From: Propionivibrio limicola
GTDB lineage: Bacteria; Pseudomonadota; Gammaproteobacteria; Burkholderiales; Rhodocyclaceae
Direction of reading: 5' to 3'
Assembly: GCF_009469695.1 (NCBI RefSeq)
Contig: NZ_SSSR01000005.1
Coordinates: forward strand, 62,001 to 126,000
Length of the DNA stretch: 64,000 nucleotides
The translations under genes and the position numbers were made by a program. Positions 2,907 through 32,254 of this stretch are shown one piece after another. The notes under the pieces were generated by a model. It ran no database searches and had not been told where the DNA came from. It saw only the letters and a list, made by a program, of their open reading frames with translations. Numbering within the stretch: position 1 is the first letter of the stretch; every line of letters begins with the position of its first letter.

Positions 2907-4883
<1,977 letters not shown>

Positions 4884-22862: not shown

Positions 22863-23056
22863 CGACCATTTCCCCAAAGAAGCAGACAACCGCGACTACA
22901 CGGCCCGCAAGAACTGTTCCGGTTCAAAACACACCGGCAAAAAGAACCTGCCGACCCAAAAAAAGGAACCGCCACTGGCGCATCCAGCGTTGCATTGTTT
23001 GCTTCGACGGAGAACAGACAAGCAACTGTCGCCCCAACAATACGGATGAAGATCCT

Positions 23057-23088
23057 GTTTCGTTTGTCGCACGTGCGACAAACGAAAC
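23057..23088. repeat. Perfect 32-bp palindrome
   Basis: 16-base arms (23057-23072 and 23073-23088) are exact reverse complements with no spacer and a CACGTG centre. It lies 15 bp past the stop of the minus-strand ThrE-like gene and about 270 bp before the iron run. No T tract follows on either strand, so it is not an ordinary intrinsic terminator; it may still fold as one or bind a dimeric protein. The rest of the 315-bp gap holds the Fur-controlled promoter. Confidence 0.85.
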
Positions 23089-23102
23089 GAACGCGCATAG
23101 TC

Positions 23103-23576
23103 TCAGATCAACGAACGCCGCCGATAGAACAACATCCCCGGCAAGGCAAGCCCAACGGCCAATGCGGCAACGATGAAGCACGCGCTAAGACCAGAGTTGA
23201 TGGCGGCAGCCAAAAGTTCCGGCGTGACACCCGAGCGCTGCATTCTTGCCAACGAGAGCAACGCTGTAAAAATCGGCACGCCCGGAATCATGGGGATCAT
23301 GGCGGCGACCGTGAAGGCTTTCGGGTGCATCCGGAGTTTCCTCCCCACGAAAACACCCAGCGTGCTCACCGTCGCCGCCGCGATGAAGGTTGCCCATTCA
23401 ATCGGAGCAACCTCCCAGACATCGGCGATCAGGAAACGCAAACCACGCGCGACGGCCCCGCCTGCCGCGCACACCCCGAGCAATCTGACCGGCACGTTGA
23501 ACGACACGCCGAAGCCGGTTGCCGCAAGAGCCGCCAACAACGTGTTTTCAATGAAACCAACGATAAACACGTTCAT
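23103..23576 (-). CDS. ThrE-type exporter, small C-terminal-type subunit (YjjB-like)
   Basis: 157 aa, the same length as E. coli YjjB. Four to five membrane helices; the conserved stretch AMIPMIPGVPIFTALLSLA matches the second half of threonine/serine exporter ThrE. ATG 23576 overlaps the stop of the larger subunit gene (ATGA). The two halves, fused in ThrE of Corynebacterium, are separate here. Known YjjP-YjjB pairs export succinate and ThrE exports threonine; the substrate here is open. Confidence 0.85.
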   Translation of the reverse strand: MNVFIVGFIENTLLAALAATGFGVSFNVPVRLLGVCAAGGAVARGLRFLIADVWEVAPIEWATFIAAATVSTLGVFVGRKLRMHPKAFTVAAMIPMIPGVPIFTALLSLARMQRSGVTPELLAAAINSGLSACFIVAALAVGLALPGMLFYRRRSLI

Positions 23577-24388
23577 AGCCACCCCCACACATCCCATACG
23601 GAAGTCGCCAGGATGACGCCGGTGCACGTCGCCGCCGACAACATCGTCGCGACCGCCCAGCGCGTGATCCCGGTATTCATGTAGCCCTTCACCATATCGG
23701 CAACGGCGTTGATCAGCGGAAAACCGGGCACCAGCATCAGGACACTCGCCGCCATGGCGACCTTGGGGGTGCTACCAATTCCCCAGACGAGTCCCTGGGC
23801 GGCGATCGACGTTGCGACAAAAGCGGTCGCGAAGAAATTGATGAGGGGGCTGAAATGCAAGGCCGCCAGATGCTGACGCACGAACATCGCCGAACCGCTC
23901 GCCACGAACGCCACCAGACAACCGGCCAGATCGGCATGCGCCAGCCGGGCAAAACATGCGCACGCGAGACCGACGACCAGCGCCACCAGCCAGCGCGGAT
24001 AACGCAATGGACGGATGACCTCAAGCCGCTCACGGTAGCCGTGGCGATCGAGCTTGCCGGTTTCGGCGTCGAGCATGGCCTGCTGCACTTCGATAAGCAC
24101 ATGGACATTGATCCCGCGATCCTCATTTCGCCGAACCGTCGTGATGCAATGCCGCTCGCTCAACGTCGTAACCACCACGGCGCTCGACATCAGCGCGATT
24201 TCCACCCCTTCGGCACCCAACGCAACGCCCACGCGACGCGCCGTGTTTTCCACCAGCGCACTTTCCGCGCCGTGCTGCAAGAGCATCAATGCCGTGCGCG
24301 CACACAAACGCGTCACCTCACGCTGCTCCGATTCGCTCAGGATTCTTGATTGAGGGCAAGCGGAAGATCCGGCCTGTTGTAGCCCCAT
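23573..24388 (-). CDS. ThrE-type exporter, large N-terminal-type subunit (YjjP-like)
   Basis: 271 aa. A soluble N-terminal domain (about residues 20-125, with CARTALMLLQHGAESALVENTARRVG) precedes five helices with MLVPGFPLINAVADMVKGY, the hallmark of the DUF1212/ThrE family. ATG 24388 is supported by GGAGG about 10 nt before it. It is co-translated with the small subunit by a 4-bp overlap. Confidence 0.85.
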   Translation of the reverse strand: MGLQQAGSSACPQSRILSESEQREVTRLCARTALMLLQHGAESALVENTARRVGVALGAEGVEIALMSSAVVVTTLSERHCITTVRRNEDRGINVHVLIEVQQAMLDAETGKLDRHGYRERLEVIRPLRYPRWLVALVVGLACACFARLAHADLAGCLVAFVASGSAMFVRQHLAALHFSPLINFFATAFVATSIAAQGLVWGIGSTPKVAMAASVLMLVPGFPLINAVADMVKGYMNTGITRWAVATMLSAATCTGVILATSVWDVWGWL

Positions 24389-24471
24389 CGGAAAAACCTC
24401 CAAATTTGAACAACCGTCGAAAGGCCCTTGAAACAAACATACCTACCAGAAACAGGATAGCGCTGCCAACG

Positions 24472-25143
24472 CTAGCGCAACTCGACGCGCCCGATTTCTG
24501 CAGCCATCGCCTCAATGAAAGACGCACTGATCGGCAGCGTCACTCCATTGACCATTCGTTTGGCCTGCAGAACGATATGATCAACGCCCAATTTCACGAG
24601 CTGCCCGGCCATGCGTCCGGCGTCCGCCGGGCTGAGCAGCGTCTCGTCCGCCGTACATCGTATCTCGTACGGTTTCCCTGAAGCCAGAACGTACGAGAGC
24701 GCGCGTTGCGCCGCGTTGCCGCTCTTCGCGCCCGTCACTCTCGGGTAATCGCAGAACGGCGCTTTGACGTCAAACCCGACCCAGTCGACCAGCGGAAACA
24801 AACCAGCCAGACGGTCCGGATAGACGCCGGCCGTGTGCAGACCGACACCGAATCCCCGTTCGCGCACCTGCCACATCGCGCCGGCCAATCCTCTTTGCAA
24901 CAACGGCTCGCCGCCGCTGAACACAACGCTATCGAGCATGCCGCGCCGCGTTTGCAGCCAGTCAAGAACTTCGGTCCAGAGTGGGCCGTTGCGAACGCCC
25001 GCCGGTTGCAGGTGCGGGTTATGGCAATACGGACAACGCCACGGACAGCCCTGGCAAAACACCACGGCAGACAGACGGCCGGGGTAATCAACGGTCGAAA
25101 ACCGCGTCAGCCCCCCGACCGTGATCGGGTGTAACGCGACCAT
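24472..25143 (-). CDS. nrdG: Anaerobic RNR-activating radical SAM protein
   Basis: 223 aa. The radical SAM cluster motif C-x3-C-x2-C is Cys33, Cys37 and Cys40 (CPWRCPYC). GGEPLLQ follows, as in SAM-binding strands. It would generate the glycyl radical on the NrdD system under anoxia. ATG 25143 shares its A with the stop of the small glycyl-domain gene (TGATG); a TTG one codon upstream is less likely. It belongs to the longer NrdG branch, resembling pyruvate-formate-lyase activases, not the 154-aa E. coli form. Confidence 0.9.
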   Translation of the reverse strand: MVALHPITVGGLTRFSTVDYPGRLSAVVFCQGCPWRCPYCHNPHLQPAGVRNGPLWTEVLDWLQTRRGMLDSVVFSGGEPLLQRGLAGAMWQVRERGFGVGLHTAGVYPDRLAGLFPLVDWVGFDVKAPFCDYPRVTGAKSGNAAQRALSYVLASGKPYEIRCTADETLLSPADAGRMAGQLVKLGVDHIVLQAKRMVNGVTLPISASFIEAMAAEIGRVELR

Positions 25144-25325
25144 CAATCGCCCCGCGCGAAACAGTCGGGCTCGGAAAAATGCTGCCGCTCACGGTGTTCG
25201 CACTGCTTGCCGAGGTTGAATTCGGTCACCGGGCGGTGATAGCCCATGACGCGCGTCCACACTTCGCAACGCTGACGCTCGTGTTCAGGCAACAGACTGG
25301 CCAAATTTTCGTTCATGGCATTCAT
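25143..25325 (-). CDS. Glycyl-radical domain of class III RNR as a separate small protein
   Basis: 60 aa from ATG 25325, which has AAGGA six bases before it. An in-frame ATG at 25343 overlaps the nrdD stop (ATGA) but lacks a ribosome site. The sequence CEVWTRVMGYHRPVTEFNLGKQ is what ends a normal NrdD: the Gly in R-V-M-G-Y is the radical site. The long NrdD upstream lacks this tail, so the active enzyme would be made of two polypeptides. The overlap arrangement argues against a simple sequencing frameshift. Confidence 0.82.
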   Translation of the reverse strand: MNAMNENLASLLPEHERQRCEVWTRVMGYHRPVTEFNLGKQCEHRERQHFSEPDCFARGD

Positions 25326-25339
25326 GGTCATTCCTTCAT

Positions 25340-27415
25340 TCAAAAAGGGGAAACAAGTGCATCGTCGGACGTAGCGCCCGACTGTTGGTCAGCTTTCTTG
25401 CGCCGCGCCAGAATTTCCTCGTCGCAGCGCGGGCAGAACTCGTGCTCGCCGGCCAGATAACCGTGCTTCGGGCAGATCGAGAAAGTCGGCGTCACGGTGA
25501 TGTACGGCAGGCGAAACTTCGACAAGGAGGTCTGTACCAGCTTGCGGCAGGCTTCCGGCGAGGAAATGCGTTCGCGCATGTACAGGTGCAGTACGGTGCC
25601 GCCGGTGTAGCGTGTCTGCAGCTCATCCTGCCGTTGCAGGGCTTCGAACGGGTCGTCGGTGAAGCCGACCGGCAGTTGCGTCGAATTGGTGTAGTACGGC
25701 GCTTCCGGTGTGCCGGCCTGCAGGATGTCGGGATAACGCTTTTTGTCCTCGCGCGCGAAGCGGTAGGTCGTGCCTTCGGCCGGGGTCGCTTCGAGGTTGT
25801 AGAGGTTGCCGGTCTGTTCCTGGTAGCCGCGCATGCGTTCGCGCAGGAAGTCGAGCAGGCGGATCGCCAGTGCGTGGCCGTCTGGCTGGCTGATGTCAGA
25901 GGCACCGTGCGTGAAGTTGCGCACCAGCTCGTTGACGCCGTTGATGCCGATCGTCGAGAAGTGGTTGCGCAGCGTGCCCAGGTAGCGCCTGGTGTAGGGG
26001 AAGAGGCCGTCGTCCATCAGGCGCTGCACGACCTTGCGCTTGATCTCCAGGCTGTCGCGCGCCATGTCGGCGAGGTGGCCGAGGCGCGACAGCAGGCCGG
26101 CTTCGTCGCCGGCAAAACGGTAGCCCAGCCGTGCGCAGTTGATCGTGACGACGCCGAGCGAGCCGGTCTGCTCGGCCGAGCCGAACAGGCCGTTGCCGCG
26201 CTTCAGCAACTCGCGCAGATCGAGCTGCAGGCGGCAGCACATCGAGCGCACGTGGTTCGGCTGCATGTCCGAATTCAGGAAATTCTGGAAGTACGGCAGG
26301 CCGTACTTGGCGGTCATGGCGAACAGCCGCTCGGCGTTTTCCGATTCCCACGGGAAGTCGGGCGTGATGTTGTAGGTCGGGATCGGGAAGGTGAACACCC
26401 GGCCGCGCCGGTCGCCGGCGCTCATCACCTCGATGAAGGCACGGTTGATCAGGTCCATCTCGGCCTGCAGCTCGCCATAGGCGAAGGGCATCTCGACGCC
26501 ACCAATGACCGGCACCTGTTCGCGCAGGTCGGCCGGGCAGACCCAGTCGAAGGTGAGGTTGGTGAACGGCGTTTGCGTGCCCCAGCGCGACGGCACGTTG
26601 AGGTTGTAGATGAACTCCTGCATCCCTTGGCGCACGGCATCGTAGTTGAGCCCGTCGTTGCGCACGTAGGCGGCCAGGTAGGTGTCGAAGGAACTGAATG
26701 CCTGCGCGCCTGCCCATTCGTTCTGCAGCGTGCCGAGAAAATTGACCATCTGCCCGAGCGCGCTGGAAAAGTGCTTCGGCGGATCGGCCTCCGGCTTGCC
26801 GGCGACACCGTTGAAACCCTCGAACAGCAGGGTGCGCAGCGACCAGCCGGCGCAGTAGCCGGAGAGCATGTCGAGGTCGTGGATATGGAAATCGGCTTCG
26901 CGGTGCGCCTGCCCGATTTCCGGCGGATAAACGTGCGACAACCAGTAGTTGGCGATGACCTTGCCGGAGACGTTGAGAATCAGCCCGCCCAGCGAATAGC
27001 CCTGGTTGGCGTTGGCCTTGACGCGCCAGTCGGCACGGTCGACGTATTCGTTGATCGAGATTTCGACGTCGATCAGCGTCTTGCGCGTTTCACGCAGCCG
27101 GCGGTGCTGGTCGCGGTAGGTGACGTAGGCGCGGAAGGTGCGCAGGTGGTTGGCTTCGACCAGTACCTGCTCGACGACGTCCTGCACCTGTTCGACGGTC
27201 GGGTCGGACGATGCGAAGCGGTGGTGCAGGACTTTGAGCACGCGCTGCGTCAACAGGGCGGCTTCGTCCTCGTCAAACTCGCCGGAAGCCTGTCCGGCGC
27301 GGGTCAGCGCATCGGCAATACGGCGCGGCGCAAAGCTGGCGCGCTCGCCGTTGCGCTTGACGATGCCGCCGGGAAAGCGCGTTTTGGGTATGGCCGCAGC
27401 CTCAGGTAAGTGCAT
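25340..27415 (-). CDS. nrdD: Anaerobic ribonucleoside-triphosphate reductase, catalytic part without glycyl tail
   Basis: 691 aa. An N-terminal ATP-cone (about residues 12-100, with VVKRNGERASFAPRRIADAL-like sequence) gives allosteric control. The ten-stranded barrel carries FPIPTYNITPDFPWES and MCCRLQLDLREL (active-site cysteines). A C-terminal zinc site has CPKHG and CPRC (about 645-665). The protein then ends without the R-V-x-G-Y radical loop, which is on the next gene. It makes deoxynucleotides without oxygen and without B12. The start overlaps the upstream 91-aa gene (TGATG). The run lies behind a cobalamin riboswitch. Confidence 0.92.
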   Translation of the reverse strand: MHLPEAAAIPKTRFPGGIVKRNGERASFAPRRIADALTRAGQASGEFDEDEAALLTQRVLKVLHHRFASSDPTVEQVQDVVEQVLVEANHLRTFRAYVTYRDQHRRLRETRKTLIDVEISINEYVDRADWRVKANANQGYSLGGLILNVSGKVIANYWLSHVYPPEIGQAHREADFHIHDLDMLSGYCAGWSLRTLLFEGFNGVAGKPEADPPKHFSSALGQMVNFLGTLQNEWAGAQAFSSFDTYLAAYVRNDGLNYDAVRQGMQEFIYNLNVPSRWGTQTPFTNLTFDWVCPADLREQVPVIGGVEMPFAYGELQAEMDLINRAFIEVMSAGDRRGRVFTFPIPTYNITPDFPWESENAERLFAMTAKYGLPYFQNFLNSDMQPNHVRSMCCRLQLDLRELLKRGNGLFGSAEQTGSLGVVTINCARLGYRFAGDEAGLLSRLGHLADMARDSLEIKRKVVQRLMDDGLFPYTRRYLGTLRNHFSTIGINGVNELVRNFTHGASDISQPDGHALAIRLLDFLRERMRGYQEQTGNLYNLEATPAEGTTYRFAREDKKRYPDILQAGTPEAPYYTNSTQLPVGFTDDPFEALQRQDELQTRYTGGTVLHLYMRERISSPEACRKLVQTSLSKFRLPYITVTPTFSICPKHGYLAGEHEFCPRCDEEILARRKKADQQSGATSDDALVSPF

Positions 27416-27690
27416 CAGAGTTGTCCTTCAATGGTTGGAGGCAGCGCAATCCAGAGGCTGGCCGCGATGACGCCGACGATGCCGGCCCAGATCAGCCAGC
27501 CTTGACAGGTGCGGGGATGGCCGATCAGTAGGGATTGACCGAACAGGCCGCGCCGGTTCAGGAAATTGCGCGAAAGCTCGCGCTGGCGAAACCAGCGTTC
27601 TTTTCGCTCCGGACCGATCAGTCTGACGATGACCTGCACGACTGCGATCCAGAGAAAAAACACGAGCAGTAGCCGGGAAATTGCTGTCAC
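27415..27690 (-). CDS. Small membrane protein in nrdD operon
   Basis: 91 aa from GTG 27690. Two membrane helices (about residues 5-26 and 66-85) flank a basic loop rich in Arg and Glu (GPERKERWFRQRELSRNFLNRRG). The start overlaps the stop of the IS630-like gene (GTGA) and its stop overlaps the nrdD start, so it is locked into the operon on both sides. I do not recognise the family. A longer reading upstream overlaps the IS630-like frame and looks unreal. Confidence 0.65.
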   Translation of the reverse strand: MTAISRLLLVFFLWIAVVQVIVRLIGPERKERWFRQRELSRNFLNRRGLFGQSLLIGHPRTCQGWLIWAGIVGVIAASLWIALPPTIEGQL

Positions 27691-28628
27691 AGCCCTGTTC
27701 CTTCCCGATGTCGGCGAACAGTTCGTACGTGTGCCGGTCCACTTGCCGCGCTGGCCAGGGTGGTCGTCGAACACGGGTTGGCACGCGCGGTAGCGTAGGC
27801 GCCAAAAAGCGCTGTGGATCGTTCCTCCGGAAAAAACACAAGTTCGAGGCGACCGGCATGTTCGTGCAGCCATGACTGCACGCCTTGGTGCTGAAAAGCA
27901 TCGAATCTATCGACGATCAGGACGATTTTTCGGGTGGCGTCATTGATCAGCGCGGTCATGAACTCGATCAGCCGATCTTCGCTAACCAGGCCCGGAAAGA
28001 GCATCCAGCGGCTTTTTCGCCGATTGCTTGTGGCCGACAACATGGTCAGTCGCGGTTGGTCTTCCGGACGCCCAGGGGCAGGATCGAGATGTGTCGAACG
28101 TCGGGCCCACAGGATTTGCGCCCCCTCTCCAACGGCCCTGAGCCGGACCGACGGGTACGACACTTCCAGCCAGCGTTGCAGCCAGCCGGGACGGGAATCC
28201 GTATCGTTGCTTTGAGCTTGAGGCGGGAGCAGTCCCCATCGCGCCAGATATTTCCCGGTGGAGCGCAGGATCGGCTGTCTGCCGCTTTCGCGGCGAATGA
28301 GTTGCGCCACAGCCTGCCTATCCCACAACGCTCCATCCAACCCAACTTGTTCGGGGCGTTGGCGACAAAGAAGGTGCTGGATGCGGGCCTCCTGCGCCTC
28401 GCTCAGGCGCCGTCCGCTTCCCGGTTTTCTGCCGCGCTCAGTCGGCTTCAGTGCGGCCATTCCGCCTTCCGCGAATAGTGTGAGGGCCGCTCGGACGCCG
28501 GGCCTGCTAAGCCCGGTCGCCGCAACGATCCGCATCATCGGCACGTCCTGAAGATGCAGCCGCACGGCCACCTTGCGTCGGGCGTGCAATTCCGCCAGCG
28601 TGGGTACCTCTCGCTTTCTGCTTGGCAT
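27687..28628 (-). CDS. IS630-transposase-like protein with degenerate catalytic site
   Basis: 313 aa. The N-terminal helix-turn-helix (about residues 28-60), winged-helix block (about 100-135, QAVAQLIRRESGRQPILRST) and DDE-like domain follow IS630/Tc1-mariner order. At the first catalytic position, where IS630 proteins have a G-D-E, this one reads LWARRST (173-179). The middle Asp is kept (LIVD, Asp240). The final S-P-E-L-N-P-[DE] block is replaced by FPEERSTALFGAY. Two of three acidic sites thus look lost. It fits tightly between the permease gene (12-bp gap) and the 91-aa gene (4-bp overlap), and I saw no terminal repeats. It may be a domesticated DNA-binding protein. Confidence 0.72.
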   Translation of the reverse strand: MPSRKREVPTLAELHARRKVAVRLHLQDVPMMRIVAATGLSRPGVRAALTLFAEGGMAALKPTERGRKPGSGRRLSEAQEARIQHLLCRQRPEQVGLDGALWDRQAVAQLIRRESGRQPILRSTGKYLARWGLLPPQAQSNDTDSRPGWLQRWLEVSYPSVRLRAVGEGAQILWARRSTHLDPAPGRPEDQPRLTMLSATSNRRKSRWMLFPGLVSEDRLIEFMTALINDATRKIVLIVDRFDAFQHQGVQSWLHEHAGRLELVFFPEERSTALFGAYATARANPCSTTTLASAASGPAHVRTVRRHREGTGL

Positions 28629-28640
28629 GGCGTCGTCCTT

Positions 28641-29246
28641 TTATGGCTTGGGCAGGGAAAACGGCCAGACCAGCGGAATGACCGCGACCGAGACCAGCAG
28701 GCAGACGATGACCAGACCGCTGCCGACTTTCACGTAATCCATGAACTTGTAGCCGCCCGGGCCAAGCACAAGCGTGTTGGGCGGCGTGCCGACCAGTGTG
28801 ATGATGCCGCCGAGCCCGGCGGCGAAGGCCATCGGCATCATCTGGCGTTTGGCGGAAATGCCGGATACGCCGCAAATGCCTGCAACCACAGGGATCAGGC
28901 AGGCGGTAGTCGCCGTGTTCGAAGTGACCGAGGAAAGCGCCGCCGCCGTTACCATGGTGCCGATCATCAGCGAGTTTTCGCCGGTGCCGGTGACCTTGAC
29001 GACCGAGGCACCGATCTTTTGCGCCAGCCCGGTGTGAAACATGGCGGCGCCGATCACGAACATCGAGGCGAACAACACCACTGTGGAGTTCGAGAGTCCC
29101 GAGAAAATGTCATGTATCGGGATGATGCCGAGCACGCCGACGGCGATGGCGCCGGCCATGGCCGTCACCGCCAGAGGTACCAGTTCCGTGATGAAGAAGA
29201 AGGCCACGACGGCCAGCACGACGAGTGTCAGGAGGTCATGGCTCAT
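28641..29246 (-). CDS. Half-size SLC13/CitT-type permease
   Basis: 201 aa, about half the usual 430-480. The first part (residues 1-155: FITELVPLAVTAMAGAIAVG, HTGLAQKIG, SNTATTACLIPVVAGI) matches the first structural repeat of SLC13-type anion transporters. From about 155 on (TPPNTLVLGPGGYKFMDYVKVG) it matches the end of the second repeat. It therefore looks like an in-frame deletion joining the two repeats. AGGAGG lies 8 nt before ATG 29246. It is the first long gene after the cobalamin riboswitch. It may work as a dimer of halves or be a decaying gene. Confidence 0.72.
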   Translation of the reverse strand: MSHDLLTLVVLAVVAFFFITELVPLAVTAMAGAIAVGVLGIIPIHDIFSGLSNSTVVLFASMFVIGAAMFHTGLAQKIGASVVKVTGTGENSLMIGTMVTAAALSSVTSNTATTACLIPVVAGICGVSGISAKRQMMPMAFAAGLGGIITLVGTPPNTLVLGPGGYKFMDYVKVGSGLVIVCLLVSVAVIPLVWPFSLPKP

Positions 29247-29295
29247 TGCATTGCCCTCCTTGTGGCGTTGGCCGTCGGGAGGAGGCTGCAAAGGG

Positions 29296-29445
29296 TTAAT
29301 TCGGGAAAATCATGGTTGTGCATCGGGTCGCTCCGTCGGAACGGGGAGCCGAATGGGCCGATGCCACGATGCGCGCGTCTGTGTCAGCCCGCAGGGCGAG
29401 CGTTGGCCCGAACCTGAAATGGGGTGCAGCAAGATGAATACGCAT
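29296..29445 (-). CDS. Possible 49-aa leader ORF after cobalamin riboswitch
   Basis: ATG 29445 is preceded by GAGAGG at a good distance and follows the riboswitch by about 50 bases, the position where the first regulated gene usually starts. The product is basic and His/Arg-rich, begins MRIHLAAPHFRF, and resembles no family I know. A 26-codon ORF overlapping the permease start also lies in this leader. Coding status is uncertain. Confidence 0.3.
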   Translation of the reverse strand: MRIHLAAPHFRFGPTLALRADTDARIVASAHSAPRSDGATRCTTMIFPN

Positions 29446-29496
29446 GATGAACCTCTCGTCCGGGACGCCCCGCCCCTGTTACGTGAAAAGAATGCT

Positions 29497-29688
29497 GAGG
29501 CAGGTCTCCTGGCTCTCGGGTCATCACGCTTTGCCCGCCTTCCCGGTGTTTTACCAGTGGCAAGATGGGGCAAAGATTCGCCGATTACAGTTGCGGGGGC
29601 AGCCCCGGATTTCGGGTCGAAGCAATCACAAAACGCGCTCGACCCGGCACCGGATTCCCTATTAATCCCTTTTGGGGAACCTTCAACG
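29497..29688 (-). ncRNA. Cobalamin riboswitch
   Basis: Read on the minus strand, the conserved parts occur in order: GGGAATCCGGTGC near the 5' end, then AAATCCGGGGCTGCCCCCGC followed by AACTGTAA (the B12 box core), GCCACTGG, CCGGGAAGGCG, and AGCCAGGAGACCTGCC (29499-29514) closing the fold. This is a full AdoCbl-class element. A promoter lies directly before it. Downstream on the same strand is the run permease, IS630-like, 91-aa protein, nrdD, glycyl domain, nrdG, which it should repress when cobalamin is plentiful. Confidence 0.95.
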
Positions 29689-29694
29689 GCGCAA

Positions 29695-29724
29695 AGTATA
29701 GGAACGCACCGATGGCATTGTCAA
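29695..29724 (-). promoter_or_regulatory. Promoter of cobalamin-riboswitch transcript
   Basis: Minus-strand TTGACA (29719-29724) and TATACT (29695-29700) are separated by 18 bp. Transcription would start near 29687, exactly at the 5' end of the riboswitch. Confidence 0.85.
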
Positions 29725-29932
29725 ACCTGAGCCGCAGCGCCGGAACATAACGCCTGGCGATTGCCGGGGCTTTGTCATCGCTTCGGCGACTGGCTCGTTA
29801 AGCGAGCACAAAAGCCAGGGACGCAAACCCTGCCATCGACGAAAAGCGGCGCGAAATCGAACCACGCAGAAGGGTATACTCGGCGCCCTCGCTGCACACT
29901 GCCGAAAACCGCCGCGTTATTACGGAAGCTCC

Positions 29933-32254
29933 ATGACATCTCGAACCTCTACGCGAATTGCTGCCAGTTCCCATCCCGCAACGGCCGAAATCAAAGAGTC
30001 CCCCCTCCCCCTTCCCGAGATGTGGAAATCGCAGGTCGAAACACAGATGGATGACAACGAGAAAATCCTCGCTTGGCTGGAAATCGACCTCGATACCCAA
30101 CTGCGCTTCACCAAAGGCGTTGTCGTACTGACCAGCAGGCACTTGCTCGCCAGGAGCGAAGAATCAGCAGACTGGCAAAGCCTCGAACTTCGTCCCGGCC
30201 TGAAGCTGACCCGCCGCGACCATGCCGGCGTCGGCAGCCTGGAGCTTTTCGATCAGGAGGGACGTCGAGCGCTGTGGCGCTATACGTTGCAGCTGGACGT
30301 TGCCGCCGGACGGCTGATCGATCGTTTCACACGTCAGCTCGAATTTCTCGCAACAGGTGCCCTGACACCACCGCCCGCACATGCCCTGTGCCCAAAGTGC
30401 GAAACCCCGCTGCTCGCCGGCCAGGATGAATGCCCGGTGTGCAGCAAGGAAGAACTGACGCCGCCTTCGACGTGGACGCTGTTCCGCCTGTGGCGCTTCG
30501 CCCGCCCGTACCGCTGGCAACTGCTGGCCGGCTTCCTGCTCTCGCTCGCCACCACGGCAGCGACGCTGGTAGCGCCCTACCTGACCATGCCGCTGATGGA
30601 CAAGGTGCTGATCCCGTACCAGAACGGCAAGCCGATCGACACCGGCCTCGTCACGCTCTACCTCTCCGGCCTGCTTGGCGCGGCGCTGCTCGCCTGGGTG
30701 CTCGGCTGGGCGCGTACCTACATTCTGGCGCTGGTTTCCGAACGCATCGGCCGCGACCTGCGCACGACGACGTATGAGCACCTGCTCAAGCTTTCGCAGG
30801 AATACTTCGGCGGCAAGCGCACCGGCGACCTGATGGCACGGATCGGCTCGGAAACCGACCGCATCAACCTGTTCATTTCGCTGCACTTCCTCGACTTCGC
30901 CACCGACGTCCTGATGATCACGATGACGACGCTGATCCTCGTCTCGATCAACCCGTGGCTGGCGCTCGTCACGCTTTTACCGCTGCCGGTCATCGCTTTC
31001 CTGATCCACACCGTGCGCGAGAAGCTGCGCACCGGCTTCGAGCGCGTCGACCGTATCTGGGCCGAAGTCACCAACGTGCTCGCCGACACCATTCCCGGCA
31101 TCCGCGTCGTTAAGGCCTTCGCGCAGGAAAGCCGCGAGGCCGCGCGCTTCCGCGCCGCCAACCAGCACAATCTGGAAGTCAACGACAAGGTCAACCGAGT
31201 GTGGTCGCTGTTCGGCCCGACCGTCACCCTGCTCACCGAGATCGGCCTGCTGATCATCTGGGCCTTCGGCATCTGGCAGATTTCTCGCAACGACATCTCG
31301 GTCGGTGTGCTGACCGCCTTCCTCGCCTACATCGGCCGTTTCTACACCCGCCTCGACTCGATGAGCCGCATCGTTTCGGTGACGCAAAAGGCCGCCGCCG
31401 GCGCCAAGCGCATCTTCGACATCCTCGACCATGTATCGAGCGTGCCGGAACCCGCCAATCCGGTGCATCTGCCGGCCGTCACCGGGCGCATCGAGCTGCG
31501 CAACGTTGGCTTCCGCTACGGCACGCGCAGCGTCACGCGCGACATCAGCCTGACCATCGAACCGGGCGAAATGGTCGGTCTCGTCGGCCACAGCGGTTCG
31601 GGCAAGAGCACGATGGTCAACCTGATCTGCCGCTTCTACGACGTTTCCGAAGGCGCGATCCTGATCGACGGCGTCGACATCCGTTCGGTGCCAGTCGCCG
31701 AATACCGCAAGCACATCGGCCTCGTGCTGCAGGAGCCGTTCCTGTTCTTCGGCACCATCGCCGAGAACATCGCCTACGGCAAGCCCGACGCGACGCGCGA
31801 GGAAATCGTCGCCGCCGCCCGCGCCGCGCACGCCCACGAGTTCATCCTGCGCCTGCCGCACGGCTACGATTCGCTGGTCGGCGAACGTGGCCAGGCGCTC
31901 TCCGGCGGCGAGCGCCAGCGCATCTCGATTGCCCGCGCCTTGCTGATCGACCCGAAGATCCTGATCCTCGACGAAGCCACCTCGTCGGTCGACACGACGA
32001 CCGAGAAGGAAATCCAGAAGGCGCTCGACAACCTCGTGCGCGGGCGGACCACGATCGCCATCGCCCACCGCCTGTCGACGCTGCGCGAAGCCAACCGGCT
32101 GGTCGTGCTCGATCGCGGCAGCGTCGTCGAGGTCGGCAGCCACGATGAGCTGATGGCCAGGGAAGGTCATTACTACGAGCTTTATCAGGCACAGGCACGC
32201 AACGTCGACACCGAGAACGGCAGCGAAGGCAACGAGGAAGGAGAAGAAGAATGA
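29933..32254 (+). CDS. ABC exporter of cyanophycin locus with N-terminal domain and zinc ribbon
   Basis: 773 aa, about 170 longer than a plain fused ABC exporter. Residues 38-140 form a soluble beta-rich domain (FTKGVVVLTSRHLLA, SLELFDQEGRRALWRYTLQL). A zinc ribbon follows with Cys153, 156, 167 and 170. The six-helix membrane domain is about 180-470. The ATPase has Walker A GHSGSGKST, signature LSGGERQR and Walker B ILILDEATSSVD. The type is annotated in related genomes as a cyanophycin metabolism-associated ABC transporter. It overlaps the DUF1854 gene by 4 bp and lies upstream of both synthetases. The exported substrate is unknown. Confidence 0.88.
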   Translation: MTSRTSTRIAASSHPATAEIKESPLPLPEMWKSQVETQMDDNEKILAWLEIDLDTQLRFTKGVVVLTSRHLLARSEESADWQSLELRPGLKLTRRDHAGVGSLELFDQEGRRALWRYTLQLDVAAGRLIDRFTRQLEFLATGALTPPPAHALCPKCETPLLAGQDECPVCSKEELTPPSTWTLFRLWRFARPYRWQLLAGFLLSLATTAATLVAPYLTMPLMDKVLIPYQNGKPIDTGLVTLYLSGLLGAALLAWVLGWARTYILALVSERIGRDLRTTTYEHLLKLSQEYFGGKRTGDLMARIGSETDRINLFISLHFLDFATDVLMITMTTLILVSINPWLALVTLLPLPVIAFLIHTVREKLRTGFERVDRIWAEVTNVLADTIPGIRVVKAFAQESREAARFRAANQHNLEVNDKVNRVWSLFGPTVTLLTEIGLLIIWAFGIWQISRNDISVGVLTAFLAYIGRFYTRLDSMSRIVSVTQKAAAGAKRIFDILDHVSSVPEPANPVHLPAVTGRIELRNVGFRYGTRSVTRDISLTIEPGEMVGLVGHSGSGKSTMVNLICRFYDVSEGAILIDGVDIRSVPVAEYRKHIGLVLQEPFLFFGTIAENIAYGKPDATREEIVAAARAAHAHEFILRLPHGYDSLVGERGQALSGGERQRISIARALLIDPKILILDEATSSVDTTTEKEIQKALDNLVRGRTTIAIAHRLSTLREANRLVVLDRGSVVEVGSHDELMAREGHYYELYQAQARNVDTENGSEGNEEGEEE

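Follow-up and report, generated by a model that had tools for sequence, protein, structure and literature searches.

How does an anaerobic ribonucleotide reductase (RNR) work when its catalytic chain ends before the glycine that should carry its radical, and does a cobalamin (vitamin B12) riboswitch upstream still govern it? Both questions are raised by the nrdD locus in a stretch of 64,000 nucleotides (nt) from Propionivibrio limicola (contig NZ_SSSR01000005.1, positions 62,001 to 126,000; hereafter the window), which belongs to a genome of 3.1 Mb in 56 contigs that is 98% complete. An earlier reading of the same DNA, the original prediction, had placed a complete riboswitch for adenosylcobalamin (AdoCbl) in front of a B12-independent, class III RNR operon, and its interpretation is partly supported. 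We consider it likely that the locus encodes a class III RNR in two pieces, that its nrdD was ancestrally under the control of the riboswitch, and that an insert now lies between the switch and nrdD.

The first question arises from a tight run of six genes that had been described as ending in nrdD and nrdG. Both genes are present, and the fifth gene of the run, which lies between them, turned out to supply the missing C-terminus of NrdD, a split that had gone unnoticed. The nrdD product (hereafter the body) matched PF13597 from position 2 to 531 of 562 (575.7 bits), PRK08270 from 5 to 662 of 684, and the ATP-cone family PF03477 with 69.4 bits. No glycyl radical motif was found in the body, whose chain ends at PF13597 position 531 of 562. 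The small open reading frame (ORF) that follows matched PF13597 from 531 to 562 of 562 and PRK08270 from 649 to 682 of 684, and contains CEVWTRVMGYHRPV, in which the radical glycine was assigned by homology. At E-values up to 0.01, its Pfam matches were confined to NRDD and its NCBIfam matches to NrdD-type models, with no match to a pyruvate formate-lyase glycyl domain. The 36 best Foldseek matches of the predicted structure of the body were solved NrdDs (solved relatives: 8p23, 9d3x, 4coi and 1h78), and residues C648, H651, C661 and C664, invariant in 33 bodies, presumably bind zinc. Against a sister, the ratio of nonsynonymous to synonymous substitution rates (dN/dS) was 0.113 for the body, 0.093 for the small gene and 0.182 for nrdG, values that show purifying selection. 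Judged from these sequence comparisons, the catalytic chain of this class III RNR is encoded in two pieces, a body and a glycyl radical protein.

In a draft genome of this kind, a split reading frame might stem from a sequencing error or from a broken pseudogene. This explanation was refuted by relatives: named isolates and complete plasmids were among the 105 of 114 loci that showed the same split, and a dN/dS near 0.1 also speaks against decay, so that we give it practically no credence. The 114 loci with a body comprised 105 split (102 distinct), 6 fused and 3 without a recognised motif, a tally biased towards the split form because 80 of them had been fetched from species genomes with a split-domain query. 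That query returned at least 580 confirmed relatives, and the best 80 of these were all split at the DNA level. Within one bacterial family, the small glycyl domain gave 28 matches in 27 of 297 genomes, and the 24 of these domains that were aligned shared 24 invariant positions. A phylum sample of 397 genomes was less biased. It contained an NrdD body in 65 genomes (66 rows), of which 17 looked split; in the remaining rows the match extended to the model's end, for G553 and G621 as two matches in one open frame. The split was confirmed on DNA in 15 of the 17 genomes; of the other two, the DNA of G556 was not fetched, and G494 (locus L140) has two stops between the parts and was not resolved by the motif. 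A partial match in G594 fell below the cut-off and was not counted as a body, and three loci that a strict motif had labelled noGRD (L127, L157 and L159) were relabelled. A search of phages returned one weak match only. In a Bradyrhizobium japonicum plasmid (L160), no nrdD body is listed and the open frame ends differently, with the small gene and nrdG intact, which suggests that the nrdD body is broken there.

Two genes in tandem could still be read as one protein. In the window, a slippery-looking heptamer stands before the stop of nrdD, and from a TTG onwards the -1 frame stays open into the small ORF, so that a programmed -1 frameshift at C-CCT-TTT-TGA might fuse the body with the glycyl domain. 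Relatives speak against this. The small gene lies in all three frames relative to the body (37, 34 and 28 of 99 loci), and 96 of the 99 small genes have a start of their own with a Shine-Dalgarno-like stretch (the 99 were scored out of 102 submitted loci, with L139, which is fused, L140 and L161 left out). The distance from the body's stop to the glycyl motif varied from 28 to 391 nt in 80 loci, and in one locus (L137; G570:C4:21500-34500) the small gene and nrdG adjoin each other about 9.5 kb from the body. The spread of frames and the separate starts therefore indicate separate genes, frames, starts and gaps together rule out programmed frameshifting as a general mechanism, and we regard it as highly improbable in the window as well.

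The small protein might instead be a spare part in the manner of GrcA, serving damaged NrdD or some other glycyl radical enzyme, with a body that is active alone. A free glycyl radical domain has its precedent in GrcA/YfiD, according to the portion of PMC8683613 available to us. Three findings count against this role and make it very unlikely here: the body itself lacks a glycyl radical motif, the small protein matched NRDD families alone at E-values up to 0.01, and the small gene travels with the activase. It lies within 450 nt on the 3′ side of the body in 104 of 105 split loci, and nrdG comes next after it in 101 of 105. The layout of L137, in which this pair is detached from the body, may be a naturally occurring indication that the small protein acts in trans and stays with the activase. 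In the two-piece enzyme that we favour, NrdG would generate the radical at the small protein's glycine, and the small protein would then dock on the body and pass the radical to the active-site cysteine, a function in trans that is inferred.

The second question concerns control. The RF00174 match is a full-length cobalamin riboswitch by its covariance score, and it was the sole Rfam match at the gathering threshold within the window; the strong promoter that had been claimed for it was likewise borne out, as a promoter-like site close to consensus (Table 1). Sites resembling sigma-70 promoters (at least 9 of 12 consensus positions) numbered three in 23000-31500, against 1.3 in shuffled sequence (standard deviation 1.1), and TTGACA together with a TAGACT or TATACT hexamer recurs at the equivalent place in two sister genomes. 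In the window the -10 hexamer extends into the 5′ end of the Rfam match, and transcription would accordingly start near the first helix.

The claim that the riboswitch stands directly before a class III RNR operon holds for these two sisters (L120 and L121), in which the aptamer lies 159 nt and about 170 nt from the nrdD start codon. In the window the riboswitch is not adjacent to nrdD; its distance to the old start codon is 158 nt, and what follows that codon is foreign to both sister loci. The alignment with L120 runs through the aptamer, the leader and the Shine-Dalgarno and start of nrdD to 29313 and resumes at 27375 inside nrdD, with 35 nt between these points in L120 and about 1.9 kb in the window. 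Against L121, the first aligned stretch ends at 29442, with 180 nt in L121 corresponding to about 2.1 kb in the window, and a three-way alignment extends this first stretch to the start codon. By alignment, then, about 1.9 kb just after the old nrdD start codon is an insert absent from both sister loci.

The insert carries the first three genes of the run, namely a half-size anion transporter, an IS630-like gene and a small membrane ORF. The six genes do lie on one strand, and each junction is an overlap or a gap of 14 nt at most, much as had been described, but with an insert between riboswitch and nrdD the run is not a native operon. The half-size transporter aligns to both repeats of the 435-512 amino acid (aa) frames of six relatives. 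The IS630-like protein occurs as a single copy in the genome, shares 41% identity with an element that a relative has in multiple copies, and may be degenerate or domesticated, since its catalytic residues were not apparent by eye. The insert as a whole is single copy in the genome; among 99 relatives searched, only its transporter part matched over hundreds of bases, apart from short matches. No terminal inverted repeats were found when the insert ends were compared. A 7-base direct repeat flanks the insert (29324 and 27416) and was considered as a target-site duplication; it was rejected, as 42% of random pairs of 81-nt sequences share a 7-mer. Upstream of the riboswitch, a divergent gene at 29933-32254 scores as a cyanophycin metabolism-associated ABC transporter (NF052233, 1428 bits).

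Table 1. Features of the riboswitch-nrdDG locus, listed in the direction of transcription (coordinates of the window).
Feature	Coordinates	Strand	Basis and context
Promoter-like TTGACA-18-TATACT	29695..29724	-	11/12 consensus matches
Cobalamin riboswitch aptamer	29482..29700	-	RF00174, 123.3 bits (cut-off 31.5), model 1-189 complete
Leader (presumed expression platform); a predicted hairpin contains the ancestral nrdD Shine-Dalgarno	29324..29481	-	Alignment with two sister leaders
Remnant ORF, 26 codons, from the ancestral nrdD start codon	29243..29323	-	Stop overlaps the transporter start (ATGA)
Half-size DASS/CitMHS-type anion transporter, 201 aa, first gene of the insert	28641..29246	-	Family models
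IS630-like transposase homologue	27687..28628	-	Passes the Pfam DDE_3 cut-off but not that of NCBIfam; 12-nt gap after the transporter
Small membrane-protein-like ORF, 91 aa, GTG start	27415..27690	-	No NCBIfam family; GTGA overlap with the IS630-like gene
nrdD body, 691 aa: ATP-cone, NRDD barrel, zinc site	25340..27415	-	TGATG overlap with the membrane ORF
Glycyl radical domain ORF, 60 aa (ATG start) or 66 aa (upstream TTG start)	25143..25325	-	14-nt gap after nrdD
nrdG, NrdG2-type radical SAM (S-adenosylmethionine) activase	24472..25143	-	TIGR02495, 175.9 bits (cut-off 131.15); TGATG overlap with the small ORF

Because the insert lies after the old nrdD start, the hold of the switch over nrdD is uncertain in this genome. 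It is possible, though we think it the lesser prospect, that the insert has uncoupled the two, leaving B12 in control of the half-size transporter and the remnant ORF, with nrdD transcribed from a cryptic promoter of the insert or barely expressed. The position of the insert fits such a loss, as does the predicted hairpin, which now guards a remnant of 26 codons, and nrdD has acquired a new Shine-Dalgarno and start. A promoter within the insert finds no match in the scan, however: no site with 9 or more of the 12 sigma-70 consensus positions was found on this strand between the riboswitch and nrdD (29482 to 27415). Terminator-like sites were only modestly above chance (13 against 9.2, standard deviation 3.2, on both strands of 23000-31500), and the low dN/dS of nrdD and the small gene also counts against such a loss, though this ratio is blind to whether constraint acted before or after the insertion. 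Stops and starts that overlap one after another suggest that nrdD may still be co-expressed from the riboswitch promoter. Continued riboswitch control of nrdD through this coupling is thus plausible, and the combination of a two-piece enzyme, an ancestral switch and an intervening insert is the reading that we carry forward.

The leader gives some indication of how the ancestral switch would have acted. The ancestral nrdD Shine-Dalgarno is predicted to be paired in a hairpin in the window, L120 and L121, and a GGGCGGGG-N-GTCCC stretch directly 3′ of the aptamer recurs in five leaders. The hairpin and the conserved stretch fit control at the level of translation, which is common for cobalamin riboswitches in Gram-negative bacteria. 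Folding the whole leader as a single sequence yielded no interpretable switch. With a consensus form and up to two mismatches, no FNR-like box was found at the promoter and one was found within the aptamer (29550-29563), in a scan that is noisy because it returned 84 sites in the window against 54 expected by chance; NrdR-like boxes, also scanned by consensus, were below chance (11 against 14). The genome holds six cobalamin riboswitches, this one included. From inspection by eye, we take the targets of others to be a cbiM-like cobalt transporter gene, a btuB-like TonB receptor gene and a cobT-like gene, and one further riboswitch precedes a CbpA/CbpB peptide system according to a family model. 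At 1-1468 of locus L006, a cobalamin riboswitch lies upstream of a CbpA peptide (TIGR04164) and a CbpB radical SAM enzyme (TIGR04163); CbpA and CbpB are a known pair of families.

The class II NrdJ that the original prediction had expected elsewhere in the genome is present. PF02867, the class I/II RNR domain, had a single match in the genome. The matching protein, of 966 aa, is encoded on the same contig some 31 kb ahead of the window and is scored as class II NrdJ by TIGR02504 (599.5 bits, cut-off 400); the same PF02867 search found no class I RNR in the genome. The NrdJ domain occurs in 26 of 28 genomes of the genus and in 17 of the 17 good ones, and in all 25 relatives with a match the proteins or fragments align to this NrdJ at 85-95% identity. 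By contrast, nrdD was found in 4 of the 28, namely the window genome, G301 and G290, which have NrdJ, and G303. With NrdJ near-universal in the genus and nrdD in so few genomes, NrdJ is taken as the standing enzyme and nrdDG as an accessory. In the ancestral arrangement, intact in the two sisters with the cobalamin riboswitch just before nrdD, the B12-free RNR would be made when AdoCbl is scarce and the AdoCbl-dependent NrdJ, the only other RNR found here, cannot work. In P. limicola, the insert of about 1.9 kb now stands between switch and nrdD.

A wider association between riboswitch and NrdJ was seen among split loci. An Rfam scan covered 28 of the 80 named split loci and found a cobalamin riboswitch upstream of nrdD in 7 of them (L036, L038, L039, L040, L044, L059 and L107). 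In the other 52 loci, a short-motif screen found no riboswitch upstream of nrdD, with a motif known to have missed L107, and 4 of the 80 (L061, L091, L102 and L105) had too little upstream sequence. Across the genomes of the 28 scanned loci, an above-cut-off NrdJ was present in 7 of 7 with the riboswitch and in 11 of 20 without it, a small sample in which relatedness was not corrected for. L061 was kept outside this comparison because its contig ends just before nrdD; its genome also has NrdJ. In two loci (L039, 799-6829; L059, 836-6544), a single cobalamin riboswitch precedes class I nrdA, behind which come the split nrdD and nrdG, an arrangement that places B12-independent enzymes of two classes under one riboswitch. 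The contig of L059 is labelled Thermoflexus (Chloroflexota), a probable binning error in view of the grouping of its nrdD with Rhodocyclaceae-like rows. The riboswitch of L107 (77.1 bits, 3513-3745), also ahead of a split nrdD, comes from a less closely related bin, BMS3Bbin13, which the tree places apart from the Rhodocyclaceae-like group.

Several observations weigh against the proposed reading. The label fused or split changes four times on a quickly built tree that took in 65 bodies, so that the split is not a simple one-off trait, an outcome made unsure by the long branches of that tree. The AlphaFold2 model of the body is only fair, with a mean pLDDT (predicted local distance difference test) of 74.5 and low confidence at residues including 127-150, 183-186 and 394-418. 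The Shine-Dalgarno that nrdD now has of its own, at 27415, lies 2 kb from the switch, and regulation of nrdD may accordingly be lost. An nrdD-bearing genome of the genus, G303, gave no NrdJ match; it is 70% complete and its contig ends at nrdD. The comparison of genomes with and without the riboswitch is weakened by its size and by the relatedness of its members. As to the tree, the fused NrdDs of Acidiphilium and Acidithiobacillus plasmids fall within the split group and make refusion likely; we take from it only that the split is old and has probably reverted.

A more speculative proposal, which we put forward tentatively, is that the small glycyl protein is an obligate and exchangeable radical subunit. 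After cleavage by oxygen at the glycine, a protein of 60 residues would be replaced and not the whole NrdD, so that denitrifiers and other bacteria that often meet oxygen could keep a class III RNR ready, with a B12 riboswitch timing its making in some lineages. Should the small protein prove to be a working subunit, class III RNRs of two chains would extend across a broad set of proteobacteria, including Pseudomonas, Stutzerimonas, Billgrantia/Halomonas, Thiobacillus and Cupriavidus species. A glycyl radical could then be made and used on a detachable subunit, which would offer a simple system for asking how oxygen damage to glycyl radical enzymes is repaired, and nrdD clones or deletions that ignore the small gene could mislead in such species. 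For the B12 switch, the locus adds one more genome to a known pattern and a natural case of insertion between a riboswitch and its gene.

The control logic of a B12 riboswitch before nrdDG is already published. B12 elements before nrdDG in Desulfovibrio vulgaris and Desulfuromonas, where NrdJ is present, led to the proposal of an isozyme switch in 2004 (PMC545781), and riboswitches before nrdAB and nrdDG have been discussed for Propionibacterium acnes (PMC3848588). Insofar as these sources were available, the general rule invoked for this locus, that B12 riboswitches precede B12-independent RNRs where a B12-dependent one exists, is thus in print. The present locus shares with those species a cobalamin riboswitch before a B12-independent RNR, an NrdJ in the genome and the same proposed logic. 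It differs in the insert of about 1.9 kb between switch and nrdD, in that no class I RNR was found, and in its split NrdD.

The split itself has partial counterparts. With class III RNRs at large (Pfam NRDD, PRK08270), the locus has in common the ATP-cone, the barrel, the zinc-site residues, the NrdG activase and a glycyl motif within the gene set, whereas the radical glycine stands here on a separate small protein. RNRs of classes I and II are not known to have a glycyl radical domain that could be detached, and the likeness to their split members lies in an RNR catalytic chain spread over two genes. Such members are the class I alpha of phage Aeh1 and the class II NrdJab of Pseudomonas (PMC3267527), and a split class II RNR is mentioned in PMC9669993, as far as the accessible text of both papers goes. 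GrcA/YfiD resembles the small protein as a free-standing glycyl radical domain. It is a spare for an enzyme with a domain of its own, pyruvate formate-lyase, whereas the enzyme here has none, and the small protein resembles NRDD and is encoded together with nrdD and nrdG. In the part of the 2021 study of YfiD spare parts at hand, only those for pyruvate formate-lyase had been validated and others were thought possible (PMC8683613).

No description of a split class III RNR was found in the open-licence literature, family reviews included, to the extent of the text available, and the two-gene enzyme is therefore undescribed as far as searched. Public annotation names the small protein 'anaerobic ribonucleoside-triphosphate reductase', and other plasmid records list no gene at that place in what is an incomplete gene table. 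A further parallel is Cupriavidus necator H16, whose nrdDG has the body, the small ORF and the activase in the same order as in the window; unlike the present genes, it lies on a plasmid, pHG1, the record of which labels the small protein nrdD. In that strain, nrdDG is reported to be essential for complete denitrification, and cobalamin to counter the defect of a pHG1-free strain, according to the accessible portion of PMC2864759, which cites other work for this.

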